Origin: a virus
IMG/VR virus record: IMGVR_UViG_3300023284_001041
Span: 1 to 30,317 of that record
DNA length: 30,317 nucleotides
Reading direction: 5' to 3' (one strand)
Part shown: one piece after another, positions 3,682 to 30,317 of the stretch
Layout of the letters: each line of letters opens with the position of its first letter
How positions within the stretch are numbered: the first letter of the stretch is position 1
The notes under the pieces: model-generated
Seen by the model: the letters and a program-made list of their open reading frames with translations, nothing else
The model's database searches: none
What the model was told of the DNA's origin: nothing
Made by a program: the position numbers and the translations under genes

Positions 3682-4232
3682 CTGGAATCCAGGACTTACC
3701 CCACCAGAGAATCCCGGAGGAATGGGACGTCAAGTGGTTTCTCGAATTCATCAGGGATGTTCTTGCAAACGCCGATGTAAGAAATGCTGATGGTATAGGA
3801 ATCACTATTACTGGCGAAGCTGCCGAAACAGCGACACTTGCCAATGACAGTGTTGATAATGATTTTGTTATGGTTTCCGCGAGCGAGAATCAGGACAATG
3901 AACGTATTCTGGCGGCAGGAACCCTTACTGAGGTTGTTGATAACGGGGCAGGTAATACGATTCAGCTCGGTCTTGCCGATATCATAACACAGAGTTTTCT
4001 CGGAAGAACAACCGCTTCTACTGGTGATGTTGAAGTCTTGACCACGACACAAGCGACCGCCTTGCTTGATGATGCGACCACTTCATTGAAAGGCGTTGTA
4101 AACGAAGCGGCGGCAGTTGCTGATTTAAGCCAGACAATCTCCAGTCCACCAACGCAGGCAGAAGTTCAGGCAATCAGTGATAAGATTGATGAACTTCTGG
4201 GCGTGATGAGAACAGCAGGACTATTGGCATGA
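3678..4232 (+). CDS. Putative tail protein in the gp26 (tail needle) position
   Basis: A 184-residue acidic, Thr/Ala-rich protein. The middle contains a short segment (LGRTTASTGDVEVLTTTQA, about residues 109-127) of a kind common in tail fibres, and the C-terminus ends in a helix QAEVQAISDKIDELLGVMRTAG with heptad spacing that could trimerise. In P22 the gene following gp10 encodes the gp26 tail needle, so this is a positional candidate for the needle or tip. It lacks the long coiled coil of gp26, so function is uncertain. It is joined to both neighbours by ATGA overlaps. Confidence 0.6.
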   Translation: MTGIQDLPHQRIPEEWDVKWFLEFIRDVLANADVRNADGIGITITGEAAETATLANDSVDNDFVMVSASENQDNERILAAGTLTEVVDNGAGNTIQLGLADIITQSFLGRTTASTGDVEVLTTTQATALLDDATTSLKGVVNEAAAVADLSQTISSPPTQAEVQAISDKIDELLGVMRTAGLLA

Positions 4233-4657
4233 TCCGCGAAGCTACCACAGAAGATATTCCGGCTCTTGTCGCAATGGGCCGGGTGTTTTTCAAACTTACG
4301 GGGCTTCCTATTGAATATGATGGTAACTCAGTTGCGGAAATGATTACAAATCTTATAAAGAATGGAGATGCAGTTGTTTTCGTCGATGATGAAGTAAAAA
4401 GTGCTATTGCGGGTTTGGTTTATCCGTTTTATTTCAATACTGACATTCTTTCGGGAAATGAAATGTTCTGGTGGGTTTCTCCGGAAAAGCGCGGAACAGG
4501 ATTGAGATTAGTGGACAAATTGGAGGATTGGGCAAGAGACAAAGGGGCGGACCTTTTTCAGATGACCTGTCTCCATGAAGGGCATGAAAAAATAGGCCGT
4601 TATTATCAACGACGCGGATATATGCCGACAGAACATAATTATATGAGGGCTTTATAA
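4229..4657 (+). CDS. GNAT-family N-acetyltransferase
   Basis: A 142-residue protein with the GCN5-related acetyltransferase fold. The N-terminus (IREATTEDIPALVAMG) is the usual beta1-alpha1 of this family. Motif A is visible as WWVSPEKRGTGLRLVDKLEDWARDKGA near residues 76-102, with RGTGLRL as the acetyl-CoA pyrophosphate loop. The segment YYQRRGYMPTEHNYMRAL near the end is the usual beta6-beta7 region. It lies inside the virion module between tail and ejection genes with ATGA/TAATG junctions, a place where P22-like phages sometimes carry such an enzyme. The substrate is unknown. Confidence 0.85.
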   Translation: MIREATTEDIPALVAMGRVFFKLTGLPIEYDGNSVAEMITNLIKNGDAVVFVDDEVKSAIAGLVYPFYFNTDILSGNEMFWWVSPEKRGTGLRLVDKLEDWARDKGADLFQMTCLHEGHEKIGRYYQRRGYMPTEHNYMRAL

Positions 4658-16936: not shown

Positions 16937-17637
16937 TATTTCAGCTCCTTCTGTTTTTCAATAATTGTGGTTTCCAAACCCTTGCTCTCTCCAGCCCCGA
17001 AGAACCAGTTGGGTAAATCCCTTTCGCACTGTGCGATTACTTTCTTCTCTGACTCCAGAAACGCCTCCAGACTTCCAAGGTCTTCAATATCAAATATCTC
17101 TCCGGACATCGTGCGAAGTTTTTTCCCAAGGTCCGTCATTGTCAATGGGCCGTGCATGGTCGCCGGAGTTTTTCCAGGCTTGACGAAGTTCCAGGGGTTG
17201 TCTGTGAATTTCTTGAATTTTGGCTTACCTGGTGTCTGAAGCACCTCACACGGCACCCACGTTGCCCCGAGGTCATAGAGGTATCGACCGACCCCCCACA
17301 TAACCGCCGAGCGCTTGAAGGCATCCGAGAAAGCGCCCTTATCCCCTTCAATCTTGGTTGCTCCCGCCCCGTCTGATTTCCAGACCCACTGGCCGTACTG
17401 GCGCTCGCCAGCAGTTGCCATCTCATCCTGAATATAAATCCCTATCTTGCAGGCCATTCTTCCGCTTCCGCAATCGTAATGTTCCGACTGCCAACCTGAA
17501 GGCCCACACACGGCGTCCAGACGCTCCATGACATCCCGAGCGTCGATATAAGCTAGGGCTAACGCCTTGCCGTTAGAAACGCTCTGAGCGCGCCAGTGGA
17601 TAGCCTCACGGGGGAAGTTTGAATCAAGTTTTATCAT
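16936..17637 (-). CDS. Rad52-like single-strand annealing recombinase
   Basis: A 233-residue protein predicted to anneal complementary single strands during recombination and replication. Diagnostic segments are AYIDARDVMERLDAVCGPSGWQSEH near residues 30-54 and the KGAFSDAFKRSAVMWGVGRYLYDL block near 100-123, which are the conserved beta-beta-alpha core of the Rad52 family (PF04098). The rest is variable. It is linked to its HNH neighbour upstream by ATGA and to the conserved small protein downstream. No partner exonuclease is visible in the window. Confidence 0.85.
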   Translation of the reverse strand: MIKLDSNFPREAIHWRAQSVSNGKALALAYIDARDVMERLDAVCGPSGWQSEHYDCGSGRMACKIGIYIQDEMATAGERQYGQWVWKSDGAGATKIEGDKGAFSDAFKRSAVMWGVGRYLYDLGATWVPCEVLQTPGKPKFKKFTDNPWNFVKPGKTPATMHGPLTMTDLGKKLRTMSGEIFDIEDLGSLEAFLESEKKVIAQCERDLPNWFFGAGESKGLETTIIEKQKELK

Positions 17638-18173
17638 TCTCTTGCCTTCTTAATTGCTGCGGCTGCCAGCCCGTTGATTTCAGACGTTAGGGGAAGTTGC
17701 TTGCGATTTGTTAATTCCTCGATAGCCTCCAGAGCTTCTAACATGAAGGGGGATGCCCGCCTCATGCGGTCGTGGCCGCTTTTCCGTAAGCCTCGCTTGA
17801 TGGCCTCGCTATGGGACACTCCACGAGAGGTTCTCCCGTGTGCCTCTCTGTCTTGAGCATTCTCAGCGGAGGTGCCCCAGCAAAGATTGAGGGCGCTGTT
17901 GTCTTCTTTTGAGCCGTTGAGGTGGCGAATTTGGTGCATCTCACTTGGCCGGGATTGTAAATATGCGGATGCCATCAGTCTGTGAACCGTAACGGCTATG
18001 TACCTTCCATCCTTGACCAAACGAACCGTCTTGTATCCATACTTGTTAGTACCCTGAACCAGTTCGCGCTTTCCGCCACCGTGCCAATTACTTACTACGG
18101 AGAAAACCCGCCCGTCCGATGTGACGGTATATCCGGGCCATTTTTGTAATGTTCTTTCATTAATACAGGTCAT
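17634..18173 (-). CDS. HNH homing endonuclease fused to an accessory-protein C-terminus
   Basis: A 179-residue protein. Residues 9-35 (LQKWPGYTVTSDGRVFSVVSN) form a NUMOD4-like N-domain and residues 60-110 (VHRLMASAY, then HLNGSKEDNSALNLCWGT) the HNH_3 nuclease core. The last 36 residues (MLEALEAIEEL...AAAAIKKARE, 144-179) do not belong to such endonucleases. They resemble the C-terminus of the neighbouring 18283 gene (MLEALEKAYNF...AAIKKARS). The enzyme probably invaded a gene of that kind and captured its tail. The ATG overlaps the stop of the 38-residue gene upstream. Confidence 0.8.
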   Translation of the reverse strand: MTCINERTLQKWPGYTVTSDGRVFSVVSNWHGGGKRELVQGTNKYGYKTVRLVKDGRYIAVTVHRLMASAYLQSRPSEMHQIRHLNGSKEDNSALNLCWGTSAENAQDREAHGRTSRGVSHSEAIKRGLRKSGHDRMRRASPFMLEALEAIEELTNRKQLPLTSEINGLAAAAIKKARE

Positions 18174-19455: not shown

Positions 19456-19953
19456 CTAGATATGTTTCCATATTTTGTAGTTAATTATTAAGGATATTAG
19501 CATTTGCGCTACGCCATGCTTGCTAGCTAATTCACGTTGCGACAGTCCCCGCCGATATTCTTTACGTATGGATATCACCTCGTTGTTTTTTAATTTTGCT
19601 CTCGGGTTTTTCTCTCCAATCATGGCGGTATCGTGCAACTTTCTGTGGCTCTGATTTTCTTTCGGCGTAACCCATTTTAAATTATTAGGTCTGTTGTTTT
19701 TTGGATTTCCATCCAGGTGAGCGCACTGCATGCCGTCTGGACATGAGCCGTGGAATGCCTCACAAATTAGCCGGTGTACCAGAACATGTTTGTTTTTTAT
19801 TTTATTGCAGACCCACATAGCAGTGTAGCCAAGTGGCTGTTTATTACCCTTCAGGATACGCTCCTTATTGAACCACAGGCTTTTTATCCGGCCATGACTG
19901 CTAACCACGTAGAACTCTTCGTAGCCCACCACTGGTATCCAAACCTCTTTCAT
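19456..19953 (-). CDS. NUMOD4/HNH homing endonuclease
   Basis: A 165-residue free-standing endonuclease. Residues 1-35 (EVWIPVVGYEEFYVVSSHGRIKSL) are the NUMOD4 DNA-binding motif, residues 58-100 (VHRLICEAFHG, CAHLDGNPKNNRPNNLKWVTPKEN) the HNH_3 core, and residues 118-165 (KLKNNEVISIRKEYRRGLSQRELASKHGV) a helix-turn-helix like those that end these enzymes. It is expected to cut phage DNA at a related locus and spread by repair. It overlaps the YopX-like gene by ATGA and is a diverged relative of the gene at 26377. Confidence 0.85.
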   Translation of the reverse strand: MKEVWIPVVGYEEFYVVSSHGRIKSLWFNKERILKGNKQPLGYTAMWVCNKIKNKHVLVHRLICEAFHGSCPDGMQCAHLDGNPKNNRPNNLKWVTPKENQSHRKLHDTAMIGEKNPRAKLKNNEVISIRKEYRRGLSQRELASKHGVAQMLISLIINYKIWKHI

Positions 19954-22140: not shown

Positions 22141-22157
22141 AATGCGGGGTGTGCAAC
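22141..22157. promoter_or_regulatory. Operator-like palindrome O3 (degenerate)
   Basis: AATGCGGGGTGTGCAAC keeps the TGC and GCA cores at identical spacing but differs from the O1/O2 half-sites at two outer bases (8 of 10 matches). Its centre is 34 bases from that of O2, and it lies just before the Cro-like start, where it could autoregulate that gene. Confidence 0.55.
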
Positions 22158-22165
22158 AAGACCCT

Positions 22166-22360
22166 ATGAATATTCAAACATACATGGACAAGAAGAAACT
22201 GCGCGACGGTGAAATGGCGGAGCTTCTTGGGTGCAACAAAACGACTGTCTGGCGGGTTCGGACAGGAGAAACAGACCCCTCGCCTGATTTGGTAAAAAAG
22301 ATATTCGATGTAACAGGCGGGAAGGTGTCTGCGAATGACTTCTTCCATCCGGTGGATTGA
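22166..22360 (+). CDS. Cro-like helix-turn-helix repressor
   Basis: A 64-residue DNA-binding protein. DGEMAELLGCNKTTVWRVRTGETDPSPDLVKKIFDVTGGKVSANDF shows the usual order: a helix-turn-helix (about residues 12-32) with GxTDPSP turn and a helix leading to 'TGGxVxxxDF', as in Cro/C1-type small repressors. It is expected to dimerise and bind the adjacent palindromes. The ATG at 22166 is preferred because an earlier in-frame ATG at 22142 would place operator O3 in the coding region. It is the first gene of the rightward early operon. Confidence 0.85.
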   Translation: MNIQTYMDKKKLRDGEMAELLGCNKTTVWRVRTGETDPSPDLVKKIFDVTGGKVSANDFFHPVD

Positions 22361-25110: not shown

Positions 25111-25767
25111 ATGCTTAAAGAGTTGATTAACGAACGAAACTACAAGGCCGGTTATGTCATACGCACAGAACTTATTGATGGTGCCGAGTATGGTGGAAAA
25201 GATTTTGAGATGAAATCTGCTTACAATCCCGCTGGAGATTACATCGGCAATTCCAAAAGCGCTCACTTCCTTTGCAAGAAAAAGGGGATCAGGCCAGAAA
25301 TATCTGCCCCGGATCACAGCGTCTGCTCAATAGGATTCTGTGAGAAAGAGCAGAAGTGGTACGGCTGGTCGCATCGCGCCATATTCGGATTTGGCGTCGG
25401 CTCAATAGTGAAAAAAGGTAACTGTGCTTATACACCAAGGACAGTTGACGAGCTTTATGCCGAACGAGAAGAATGGTATTCTGATTTTAACGATCCCCAT
25501 AAACACATGGATTGCACGGAAAAAGATTATGAAAACAACCGCCTCATTATCAAGCATGAGATGGTGAACACAGATAGTGGGAAGATGTCTACAAATATAG
25601 CCGACGCTTGTGATGCGGTGGTAAATCTCGACGGATCAGAAGTAGAAATTGGCGAGCCTGCCGAGCCTCAGCTTCAGTATATCAATACAGGGCGCGGTGA
25701 ATGGACTGCCGAGACTCTTTCTGATGCCAAGCAAATGGCGGTGGATTTCGCGGAAAGTGTTTCATAG
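25111..25767 (+). CDS. Conserved phage hypothetical protein
   Basis: A 218-residue acidic protein (MLKELINERNYKAGYVIRTELIDGAEYGG...). The centre has SVCSIGFCEKEQKWYGWSHRAIFGFGVGSIVKKG near residues 70-103, which reads as a compact beta domain with Trp and Gly; the C-terminus ends in a helix (GEWTAETLSDAKQMAVDFAE). It follows CAGGAG and a two-base gap. The family seems confined to phages and its role is unknown. Confidence 0.7.
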   Translation: MLKELINERNYKAGYVIRTELIDGAEYGGKDFEMKSAYNPAGDYIGNSKSAHFLCKKKGIRPEISAPDHSVCSIGFCEKEQKWYGWSHRAIFGFGVGSIVKKGNCAYTPRTVDELYAEREEWYSDFNDPHKHMDCTEKDYENNRLIIKHEMVNTDSGKMSTNIADACDAVVNLDGSEVEIGEPAEPQLQYINTGRGEWTAETLSDAKQMAVDFAESVS

Positions 25768-26166: not shown

Positions 26167-26354
26167 TGGAAGAAATAGTTGATGGTATAAAAGAAACCAT
26201 CAGAAGCATAACGACAGATAATGCCGTTTGCAAAGGCCGCGCCGCTTATTTAGAGGGGCTATCTCGCACAGCCAATCCGTATAAAGAAGGCCCACATAGC
26301 TCAAAGGATTTTTGGGATATTGGCTGGGAATACCAAAAAGATAAAGACGCCTAA
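26163..26354 (+). CDS. Rmf/CrpP-fold micro-protein
   Basis: A 63-residue protein (MMEEIVDGIKETIRSITTDNAVCKGRAAYLEGLSRTANPYKEGPHSSKDFWDIGWEY...). The order 'AxxxGxxxxxNPYxxxxxxxxFWxxGW' is that of the ribosome modulation factor / CrpP-like fold, which in bacteria and phages includes ribosome-binding and small regulatory proteins. Conserved NPY and W..GW are visible. Its function in the phage is not known. It overlaps the upstream gene by ATGA. Confidence 0.6.
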   Translation: MMEEIVDGIKETIRSITTDNAVCKGRAAYLEGLSRTANPYKEGPHSSKDFWDIGWEYQKDKDA

Positions 26355-26376
26355 CCGAAGTCACAGAGGAAGAACA

Positions 26377-26886
26377 ATGGAAGAATGGCGAGACATCACA
26401 GAATATGAGGGTGTTTATCAGGTTAGTTCGCTTGGGCGGGTGCGGAGTCTTGATAGGATTGTGCGGGCGTCTGGCCCTGTGCCAGCGAGAAAACACCAAG
26501 GAAGGGTATTATCTGCGGCTGATAACGGCAAGGGATATCTCCACTTGAGTCTTGCTAAAAACGGAACAATCAAAACACACAGAGTATGTAGACTTGTAGC
26601 CGCCGCGTTTCATGGGTCTTGCCCGGAAGGCAAAGAATGCGCTCATCTTGACGGAACACGTAACAATGACATACCAGAAAATTTGCGCTGGGTTACGCCA
26701 AGTGAAAACATGCTTCACATGCACGAACACGGCACTCGTTTAACTAAGCTAAACGAGAGCGACGTGGTGGAGATCAAGAAAAGATATACCAACGGAGAAA
26801 CCAAAAGAAAAATCAGTCTCGATTATCCTGTAAGCGACGTCACAATAGGGGGGATTGTGAATGGGAAGGTATGGAGCCATGTCTGA
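26377..26886 (+). CDS. NUMOD4/HNH homing endonuclease
   Basis: A 169-residue free-standing endonuclease. Residues 1-35 (MEEWRDITEYEGVYQVSSLGRVRSLDR) are NUMOD4, residues 65-115 (HRVCRLVAAAFHG, CAHLDGTRNNDIPENLRWVTPSEN) the HNH_3 core and residues 120-169 a helix-turn-helix tail. AGAGGA lies upstream of the chosen start. It shares AFHGSCP, CAHLDG, NN and WVTP blocks with the gene at 19456 and overlaps the downstream gene by 8 bases. Its target is not visible. Confidence 0.85.
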   Translation: MEEWRDITEYEGVYQVSSLGRVRSLDRIVRASGPVPARKHQGRVLSAADNGKGYLHLSLAKNGTIKTHRVCRLVAAAFHGSCPEGKECAHLDGTRNNDIPENLRWVTPSENMLHMHEHGTRLTKLNESDVVEIKKRYTNGETKRKISLDYPVSDVTIGGIVNGKVWSHV

Positions 26887-27994: not shown

Positions 27995-28393
27995 ATGGAT
28001 GTCGAGATTTGCGAGACACGGTTAATCGAGGCCACCCACACCTTACGCTGGTTGCCTGATCCCGACGCAAAGTACCGTCAAGGGCCACACAGCGCGCTTC
28101 CAGAACACGTCAGGGACGTCGCTGAATCTTATGGGTACAGTGACGAGGAAAATAAACACATCCCCTCTCCAGAGGCAATCTCACGCTACCAAGAGGCGTT
28201 GGACTGGCTTCAAACTATCCCCGTCGAAATAGAACGTGACTTCATGTATTGGGCTTTTTATTTCCAGGAGGGACAGAAAAACCCAATCCCGTGGCGGAAA
28301 GTAAGGTATCATTCCGGTTACAAGAGGTGTTCCAAACAATGGTGTCATCAGGTATATAGGTCATGGCTGAGAAAAATGGCGCGGTGCCGATAA
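27995..28393 (+). CDS. DUF6362-like HTH protein, candidate late regulator
   Basis: A 132-residue protein. RLIEATHTLRWLPDPDAKYRQGPHSALPEH at residues 9-38 and SPEAISRYQEALDWLQTIPVEIERDFMYWAFYF at 58-90 resemble DUF6362, whose C-terminal part is a sigma-like HTH; here PIPWRKVRYHSGYKRCSKQWCHQVYRSWLRKM (97-128) would be that HTH. It is near the end of the early operon, immediately before a promoter-terminator pair at 28776-28879, where lambda carries Q. Regulatory role is inference. AAGGA lies upstream of the ATG. Confidence 0.65.
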   Translation: MDVEICETRLIEATHTLRWLPDPDAKYRQGPHSALPEHVRDVAESYGYSDEENKHIPSPEAISRYQEALDWLQTIPVEIERDFMYWAFYFQEGQKNPIPWRKVRYHSGYKRCSKQWCHQVYRSWLRKMARCR

Positions 28394-28779
28394 CCTTCAA
28401 AGAATTTATTTGGAGTCGGGCGGCTAGGCATCTTGCATACTGCGGTGTTTACGCGGTTGGTCCGGACCCAGACGGACCTATTAAAATTGGAATAACAACC
28501 AATCCGGTGTCGAGGTTTTCAGCGCTAAACACAGATAATCCAGTCGAGATTTTTTGCTATCATTATTGCTGGTTTGCCGGGCTACCTCTGGCAAAAAGAG
28601 TAGAAGACGCCTGCCATAAACATTTAACGGGCAAGAACATCAAGGGGGAATGGTTTAACATATCTTATGGTGAGGCAAGCGAAGTTATACTAAGAATGGC
28701 GGAAGAAACCAAGTCTCCTTGGTTTGATGAGAAGGAAAGACTCCGCCGCGTGGAATATTTGAAAGAATTTTCTACTTGA
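28363..28779 (+). CDS. GIY-YIG nuclease family protein (T5orf172/MUG113-like)
   Basis: A 138-residue protein. CGVYAVGPDPDGPIKIGITTNPVSRFSALNTDNP near residues 27-60 carries the GIY-YIG core (GVY...KIGIT.. R), then VEDACHKHLTGKNIKGEWFNIS near 80-101 provides the Glu and 'GEWF' block typical of the T5orf172/MUG113 branch. Such proteins are often mobile or DNA-processing nucleases. It overlaps the DUF6362-like gene by 31 bases and is the last gene of the early operon. Confidence 0.8.
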   Translation: MAEKNGAVPITFKEFIWSRAARHLAYCGVYAVGPDPDGPIKIGITTNPVSRFSALNTDNPVEIFCYHYCWFAGLPLAKRVEDACHKHLTGKNIKGEWFNISYGEASEVILRMAEETKSPWFDEKERLRRVEYLKEFST

Positions 28780-28804
28780 CCGAAAGTCTCCGTAAAACTA
28801 AGAT
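28776..28804 (+). promoter_or_regulatory. Candidate late promoter
   Basis: TTGACC (28776-28781) and TAAGAT (28799-28804) are separated by exactly 17 bases, close to the sigma70 consensus. The -35 element overlaps the stop of the last early gene. The transcript would start near 28811 and run into the hairpin and terminator that follow, comparable to lambda pR'. Confidence 0.55.
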
Positions 28805-28812
28805 TGCTTCAC

Positions 28813-28843
28813 GGTGGCATTTTTAGCCTGAACAGCGGCCACC
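28813..28843 (+). other. Hairpin in late leader
   Basis: GGTGGC at 28813-28818 and GCCACC at 28838-28843 are perfectly complementary with a 19-base loop. It would be the first structure in the leader transcribed from the candidate late promoter and might be a pause or recognition element for an antiterminator. Confidence 0.5.
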
Positions 28844-28859
28844 AAGACGTCCCAAACTC

Positions 28860-28879
28860 GCGCCTTCGGGCGCTTTTTT
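28860..28879 (+). terminator. Intrinsic terminator upstream of late genes
   Basis: GCGCC-TTCG-GGCGC followed by TTTTTT: a 5-bp GC stem with the very stable UUCG loop and a run of six T. It ends the early operon and would also stop the short leader from the late promoter unless polymerase is modified. The next gene starts 15 bases later. Confidence 0.9.
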
Positions 28880-28893
28880 CTTTGGAAAACTCC

Positions 28894-29475
28894 ATGACCC
28901 AGGATGTCCTTATCACGGTTGGCGGGCAGTTTGTTTTTGCCGATCATGCCACCGATTATGTTGGTGGAACGGGAAACAACAGCCTTGAGATTGTAGGTTC
29001 CACGGATGTTCAGATTGATCTTACTTCGCTGGCGGCTCTTGCAGCAAGGCAATCCGATAAGGTAGACCTCGGAGCCGCAAGGGGCAGGCGTTTTGCGGTA
29101 ATGATGTCCGTTGAATTTGCGACCGCCCCAACAGCGGGAGAAACAGTAACACTTTATTGGGCTCCATCACCCGACACATCGGCAGCAGTTGGTAATCCTG
29201 GAGGTGTTAGCGGATCGGACGCGGCTTATGCCGGTTATTCTTCAAACCTTACCGAATCCAAGATTCAACTACAATATATCGGGCAACTTCCACTTACCGT
29301 TCAGGCCACGCCTACGGTACAGATAGGCGTGGCAAGCCCCAATTTCGGGCCGATGGATCGATTTGGAACTCTGGTCGTAGTAAATGATTCTGCCGCTGAC
29401 GCTTTCTTTACTGATGCCGTTGAGATTTCAATTTCCTTCCAGCCAGTTGTGGATCAAATTGCGGACACTGTTTGA
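28894..29475 (+). CDS. Late structural protein, unknown
   Basis: A 193-residue protein starting at 28894 (MTQDVLITVGGQFVFADHATDYVGG...), rich in Ala, Thr, Val, Ser and Gly, as in beta-sandwich virion proteins. Segments such as RFAVMMSVEFATAPTAGETVTLYWAPSPDTSAA (near 66-98) recur in capsid or tail proteins. A weak TTTGGAAAA lies upstream. It shares its stop with the start of the LamG-like gene (TGATG), so both are co-translated. It is the first gene behind the terminator and so the first late gene. The exact role is unknown. Confidence 0.7.
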   Translation: MTQDVLITVGGQFVFADHATDYVGGTGNNSLEIVGSTDVQIDLTSLAALAARQSDKVDLGAARGRRFAVMMSVEFATAPTAGETVTLYWAPSPDTSAAVGNPGGVSGSDAAYAGYSSNLTESKIQLQYIGQLPLTVQATPTVQIGVASPNFGPMDRFGTLVVVNDSAADAFFTDAVEISISFQPVVDQIADTV

Positions 29476-30317
29476 TGGCCATCGATTTTGATGGCACCCA
29501 AAGGCTGGAGTATACAAACTGGGCTTCCCTGCCCCCCCCTTATTCTGTTGGTTGCTGGTTTCAAACTGATAATGTAAGTGGCATTACCACGCCTTGGTCG
29601 CAGGGCCAGCCAGCAGGTACGAACTTTGATTCCATACTCATAAGAGGCAACGTAGGAGGCGATCCGTGGTCGTTTGGGCCGAACGGAGCCAACGAGGCGA
29701 GGGCCACCGGAATTGTGCAGGGTGATTGGCATTGGGGGCTTGCGGTCCATGCTTCCCTTACCGACCGAAGGGCTTTTGTTGACACCAATAAGGGAACCGA
29801 CACTGATTTACAGGCACAAGGCGGGGTTTATGATGCACTTTATTGGGCGGAAGTCGCACGTTCTGCTTCGGGCCTGAATCTTGACGGACGGCTGGCACAT
29901 GGTGCGATGTGGAACCGTGCATTGTCCGACCAGGAAAACGCTTTTCTTTCACAAGGTTATAGTCCCGAATTTATCCCGCAAGGACTGATCCATTACTGGC
30001 GGATGAACGATCCGACCGACATCAGGGACCGTATTGGAACCGCTCACCTGACAGCGATAGGCGCACCGCAACCTTTTGCTCCACCTGATGTGATAAGCCC
30101 TTCTGTTCCGATTGTAGTGGCACCAGCGGCAATTGTGGTTGGCGGGAGAATTATGTCAAGTCTTGTTGATGCAGGCGGTATAGTGACCATCCGCGTTAAA
30201 GCCCGTCGCCGCCGTCGCAGTGACTGTGATCATGTTGAAACCAACAACAGAATTCAGGCTAACGACCAATGTTTCACCCGTTATGATGGGGGTCGCAGTT
30301 GCATCTTCATAGATATC
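29475..30317 (+). CDS. LamG/concanavalin-like adhesin protein (3' end outside window)
   Basis: An open frame of 281 codons without a stop before the window ends. The start MAIDFDGTQRLEYTNWASL..., then PYSVGCWFQTDN, WHWGLAVHASLTDRRAFVDTNKG and LDGRLAHGAMWNRALSDQENAFLSQGYSP (about residues 130-165) follow the LamG/concanavalin-like order, in which GxLdxvaiwnrALSdqE is a hallmark. Such domains bind sugars or surfaces on tail or capsid proteins. A tract of eight C lies at 29532-29539 within codons 20-22. The C-terminal RRRRR and following residues look less protein-like, so a frame problem cannot be excluded. Confidence 0.7.
   Translation, partial: MAIDFDGTQRLEYTNWASLPPPYSVGCWFQTDNVSGITTPWSQGQPAGTNFDSILIRGNVGGDPWSFGPNGANEARATGIVQGDWHWGLAVHASLTDRRAFVDTNKGTDTDLQAQGGVYDALYWAEVARSASGLNLDGRLAHGAMWNRALSDQENAFLSQGYSPEFIPQGLIHYWRMNDPTDIRDRIGTAHLTAIGAPQPFAPPDVISPSVPIVVAPAAIVVGGRIMSSLVDAGGIVTIRVKARRRRRSDCDHVETNNRIQANDQCFTRYDGGRSCIFIDI

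Follow-up and report, generated by a model that had tools for sequence, protein, structure and literature searches.

DUF6362 proteins as candidate Q-type late regulators, from a promoter-terminator pair in a P22-like viral contig

Gene layout and the promoter-terminator pair

The window analyzed here is the whole of record IMGVR_UViG_3300023284_001041, a linear viral contig of 30,317 bases from a P22-like podovirus. Besides the coat-protein gene, it holds genes for tail and lysis, a block of leftward early genes, and a rightward early operon that runs from a Cro-like gene at 22142 and closes with genes for DUF6362 and GIY-YIG proteins; the record does not include the terminase end. The structural block also contains a GNAT acetyltransferase-like ORF (4229-4657, read from sequence), and the early operon carries an anti-defence gene at 25111-25767 that matches Pfam PF25188 Tad6, a type I Thoeris inhibitor, with E 2e-56. 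Three NUMOD/HNH homing-type endonuclease-like ORFs, recognized by eye in the translations, are scattered in the early regions (17634-18173, -; 19456-19953, -; 26320-26886, +). The main features are as follows.

21-1223: coat protein; closest annotated relative Pseudomonas phage PAE2, 44.8%
22142-22360, + strand: Cro-like repressor, first gene of the rightward early operon; HTH_3/HTH_31 below the Pfam cut-off, several PHROG repressor families
27995-28393, + strand: DUF6362 protein, 132 aa, proposed Q-type late regulator; Pfam PF19889
28363-28779, + strand: GIY-YIG (T5orf172/MUG113) protein, 138 aa, last early gene; Pfam E 3.6e-12
28776-28781, + strand: -35 element TTGACC, by sequence match
28782-28798, + strand: 17-bp spacer GAAAGTCTCCGTAAAAC; putative site of a Q-type binding element, by analogy with lambda Q, Q21, AlpA, and GafZ
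28799-28804, + strand: -10 element TAAGAT, by sequence match
28811, + strand: predicted transcription start (+1), inferred from the -10 position
28810-28815, + strand: weak -10-like hexamer CACGGT at -1 to +5, from sequence
28813-28843, + strand: leader hairpin with a 6-bp stem GGTGGC/GCCACC (28813-28818/28838-28843) and a 19-nt loop
28860-28879, + strand: tR'-like intrinsic terminator GCGCC-TTCG-GGCGC-TTTTTT
28894-29475, + strand: first gene past the terminator, 193 aa; without a Pfam family, 57% identical relative in another viral contig
29475-30317, + strand: LamG-like protein running off the record end; from the ORF list and a reading of the sequence only, without a domain search

The DUF6362 identity of the 27995-28393 product, first proposed from sequence alone, is borne out by a PF19889 match of E 1.6e-10 and 41.7 bits (curated cut-off 31). 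The protein also matches PHROG 6836, which is annotated as function unknown. Its gene lies just upstream of the promoter-terminator pair with one GIY-YIG gene between, as the preliminary description had it; the two genes overlap by 31 bases and are therefore probably co-translated. The AlphaFold model is all-helical (mean pLDDT 85.6, against 84.1 for the model of another family member), with a helical N-terminal part and a C-terminal helix-turn-helix. The protein is divergent, at ~27% identity to other members, and has a short insertion in the helix-turn-helix.

The preliminary description placed downstream of these genes a sigma70-like promoter, a leader hairpin, a strong intrinsic terminator about 50 bases from the predicted start, and late genes right after it. 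The promoter is present at 28776-28804, with TTGACC-17-TAAGAT making 9/12 consensus matches. Such sites number 7 in the wider region against 5.9 ± 2.7 in shuffles, so they are not commoner than chance, and the chance of a promoter-like site within this 99-nt gap is 2-6%; taken alone, the predicted promoter would be only weak evidence for a switch. The hexamer CACGGT occupies the register of a functional -10-like element, CACGAT at -1 to +5 of the AlpA-dependent alpB promoter (PMC9371919), from which it differs by one base; this comparison is post hoc, with a chance of ~2%. The leader hairpin fared less well: its 6-bp stem exists, but folding of the leader is at chance level (z -0.5 against shuffles), and an Rfam search matched no family, leaving a leader-RNA explanation unsupported.

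The terminator held up. Its hairpin begins at about +50 from 28811 and ends 75 nt from the -10 element, and under a criterion of at least five G-C pairs plus a good T tract it is the sole strong + strand terminator of the window; shuffled controls give 0.35 such terminators per 30,317-base stretch on both strands. Since no strong + strand terminator was found within the early operon, from 22142 up to 28860, the one at 28860-28879 would stop early transcripts too. Only 14 bases separate the end of the T tract from the ATG at 28894, so no promoter fits between them. A gene thus follows the terminator directly, as claimed, but its lateness is only inferred, because 28894-29475 is not early-operon-like and a LamG-like gene comes next; its product is probably a virion or accessory protein.

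Recurrence of the arrangement across the DUF6362 family

Scans with the DUF6362 protein of the record as the only query brought up no relatives from viral contigs, genomes, or phage records. Plasmid records yielded DUF6362 proteins from Shinella, Eleftheria, and Azospirillum; the Shinella protein, used as query, led to Agarilytica and Rhodobacter phages, and an alignment of these relatives retrieved 80 loci from bacterial genomes and another 80 from viral contigs. All 68 family members of set A6, the protein of the record included, match PF19889. Family searches detected DUF6362 in 44 of 398 Pseudomonadota genomes and in 47 of 289 genomes of one class; PF06530, searched as a positive control, was absent from 190 genomes of that class. 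The available contigs of phages with a related coat protein contained no DUF6362, and the literature searched held no paper naming it. The counts that follow come from 92 loci thinned by protein similarity, each with at least 300 bases of downstream DNA, from which the record's own locus was excluded.

Terminators were sought at -30 to +320 of the DUF6362 stop as hairpins of -14 kcal/mol or better followed by a T tract. This energy-based finder replaced one that barred mismatches and bulges and missed most terminators; it is itself blind to lambda tR', whose hairpin exceeds 46 nt. A strong terminator follows DUF6362 in 41/92 loci, where dinucleotide shuffles predict 4.0. The opposite strand gave 7, other ORF ends of the same loci 10/260, and RusA gene ends 1/12. 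In the remaining 51/92 loci no strong terminator was detected, and many alphaproteobacterial loci have the promoter motif described below without one. In two P22-like relatives without a DUF6362 gene, the DNA inspected was free of strong terminators, a result of little weight in either direction.

Many loci have a gene start only 18-31 nt past the terminator, an ATG with a Shine-Dalgarno-like sequence, often that of an endolysin, terminase, or HNH gene; a further promoter would not fit in so short a gap. Pfam families in the downstream ORFs include M15 endolysins (9), GTA-type holins (5), terminases (5), and HNH proteins (5), as well as ParB and DNA methylase genes (12 each). This placement of DUF6362, at the close of the early operon and beside late genes, is found in the Rhodobacter phages, in elements of Eleftheria, Agarilytica, and Shinella, and in the sampled genomes. 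The end of DUF6362 is a late-gene boundary. Two loci vary in gene content: in L249, DUF6362 and a terminator are followed by a GIY-YIG (T5orf172-like) gene, which in the record studied precedes the promoter, and in L035 (MT837927), a human-gut phage contig, DUF6362 and two terminators are followed by an S-adenosylmethionine synthetase-like gene.

The promoters show a second regularity. In 21/92 loci there are TANNNT pairs spaced by exactly 12 bp, where shuffles give 2.1 and control ORF ends 0/277; pairs at other distances stay at background level. With the terminators, this makes the synteny check suggested at the outset, of DUF6362 genes with promoter-terminator pairs, strongly positive. Lambda pR' shows the same 12-bp layout (TAAATT-TGACTC-AACGAT), and its second -10-like element holds sigma for the pause needed by Q (PMC6606751). 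An iterated matrix gave the family motif CA.tTTtc..c.gGACAaa...GaCagAATTtGcTA.aaTtct.gcTAtaaTCGgGggAG, present in 41/92 loci by an in-sample count and spanning the -35, the spacer, the -10, and the second -10. The spacer part falls where the binding sites of Q, AlpA, and GafZ lie in the promoters they control; a DUF6362 site there is putative. Of the 24 loci having both, 20 place the end of the terminator hairpin 74-110 nt past the -10. Motif-bearing loci may share DNA by descent, and the counts are not independent events.

Against this motif, the promoter of the record scores poorly and does not match. Its -34 to -12 part ranks 68 of 60,514 positions, as one of four sub-ranges tried, and its second hexamer is weak and one base off register. 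The record's own promoter is an atypical member, and the record alone would not carry the case. Given the divergence of its DUF6362 protein and the insertion in the helix-turn-helix, a different DNA site is unsurprising. Locus L259 presents a similar case: TTGACC-18-TATTAT-TGGCC-TATAGT, a terminator, and then a terminase-small-subunit-like gene.

Comparison with known antiterminators

Few late antiterminators are known (lambda Q, Q21, AlpA, and GafZ), and most of the work on them concerns enterics or single systems. The DUF6362 arrangement shares with lambda Q (PF03589) and its pR'-tR' region a regulator gene placed shortly before a constitutive promoter, a terminator, and then late genes; at the family level only, it also shares the -10-like pause element 12 bp past the -10. 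It differs in that the terminator lies far closer to the promoter than lambda tR' does, and in that the zinc-finger region is absent from the DUF6362 model. Sequence profiles of DUF6362 show no relation to lambda Q or to Q21. For lambda Q, hhalign gave E 0.26 over 18 columns, and no member matched PF03589; for Q21, hhalign gave E 0.48 with SfI Q, a stand-in that aligns end to end with PDB 6jnx/6p18. PHROG 79, 'anti-termination protein Q-like', is weakly matched by 2/68 members (E 0.003).

The phage 21 protein (PF06530, PDB 6jnx/6p18) resembles DUF6362 in being all-helical with a helix-turn-helix, at 162 aa against 132-140. Foldseek aligned the model of a family member to Q21 chain 6p18_Q over the full length, with TM 0.52/0.48 and a probability of 0.72, but the E-value of 1.9 is not significant; further Q21 chains (6jnx, 6p1a, 6p1b) aligned with E-values above 1, and the list consists mostly of sigma region 4. 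With the record's own model, only weak sigma-factor matches were obtained, and Q21 was not listed. The predicted structural match to Q21 is a lead and not a passed test. The DNA sites invite a similar comparison: Q21 recognizes short direct repeats of TGAGCA (PMC6606751), and DUF6362 loci bear repeats of the GAACA/GAGACA type.

AlpA of Pseudomonas aeruginosa binds between -35 and -10, at GGGACG-N5-GGTA (PMC7969949, PMC9371919). It is a prophage-derived lysis-gene regulator, and the register of its CACGAT is that of CACGGT in the record; it differs in governing a chromosomal death pathway. No PDB chain named AlpA appeared among the DUF6362 profile matches up to E 10. GafZ, from the Caulobacter gene transfer agent, is an anti-terminator with a sigma-like helix-turn-helix and a site between -35 and -10 (PMC11150451). 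The likeness lies in an alphaproteobacterial phage-like element with a helix-turn-helix protein and, for DUF6362 putatively, a promoter-spacer site; GafZ differs in working with GafY and IHF and in having its terminator after the first gene.

Proposed mechanism and rival explanations

The most likely reading is that DUF6362 proteins form a family of late regulators of the Q type and that the stretch 28776-28879 is the family's switch in this phage. We put the probability that this stretch is a lambda-type late switch worked by DUF6362 at roughly two in three. Under such a mechanism, host RNA polymerase would start constitutively at 28776-28804 and make a short leader RNA ending at 28860-28879, where early-operon transcription would also halt. 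DUF6362, produced late in the early operon, would bind the promoter through its helix-turn-helix, probably during a pause just past the start while sigma is held on the -10-like sequence; having joined the polymerase, it would let the terminator be passed and the late genes be transcribed. Binding, pausing, and terminator read-through are our inferences; the DUF6362 gene, the cis layout, and its recurrence across the family are established. The preliminary proposal of a late antiterminator or activator thus gains support as a candidate from the family terminators, the tandem hexamers, and the lysis, terminase, and HNH neighbors, while antitermination itself has not been demonstrated.

Antitermination is our preferred reading because the terminators sit between promoter and gene. 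Activation is possible, above all in the alphaproteobacterial loci without a visible terminator, many of which keep the motif. DUF6362 would then be a conventional late-promoter activator at GGACA/GAACA-type repeats around -35, and the terminator would only end early transcription or limit leakage. The repeated ACA-containing half-sites, an alphaproteobacterial palindrome (TGTCCG-CGGACA) upstream of -35, and the resemblance of the helix-turn-helix to sigma region 4 all suit an activator, but polymerase activated at the motif would still stop at a terminator lying before the first late gene, and simple activation needs no second -10-like hexamer at +12. We regard conventional activation as unlikely, though a serious contender.

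It is less probable still that the terminator merely closes the early operon, with the late genes under another, undetected regulator or promoter and DUF6362 an unrelated early DNA-binding protein. The near-chance promoter match in the record would allow this, as would the GIY-YIG gene that separates DUF6362 from the promoter; yet the enrichment of terminators and tandem -10 elements is specific to DUF6362 gene ends, and the 14 bases before the ATG hold no promoter. Least credible, and in our estimate very improbable, is that an N-like protein or a put-like leader RNA, and not DUF6362, lets polymerase from the early promoter through the terminator. The early operon does reach 28860 uninterrupted by strong terminators, and the leader does have a hairpin, but that hairpin is at chance level without an Rfam match, and the conserved features lie in the promoter rather than the leader.

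Returning to antitermination, we extend it to the family with slightly less assurance than to the single switch: the odds moderately favor the view that DUF6362 proteins are late antiterminators of the Q type, a large and so far unrecognized family in proteobacterial phages that combines a Q21-like fold with no sequence similarity, loads on sigma-paused polymerase at tandem -10 and GGACA/GAACA-type sites, and carries it past an intrinsic terminator. If true, this would assign a role to a Pfam DUF and a PHROG, account for the late control of many prophages without recognized Q proteins, and supply ready promoter-protein pairs with which to probe how unrelated proteins converge on sigma-paused polymerase.

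Two further features were seen in alphaproteobacterial loci. In L101, L294, and other Rhodobacterales loci, an inverted repeat CTCTCCCGGG/CTCGGGAGAG lies on either side of the -10 region in the promoter linked to DUF6362. In L037 and other alphaproteobacterial loci, GGTTCCTTCC...TATGC(T/G)GGCGGG is strongly conserved ~150-250 bases past the DUF6362 stop. An RNA-leader match of this conserved downstream DNA was set aside: because the RcKemmy record (MW677517) ends inside the conserved sequence, it is probably a cos site between the late promoter and the terminase side.
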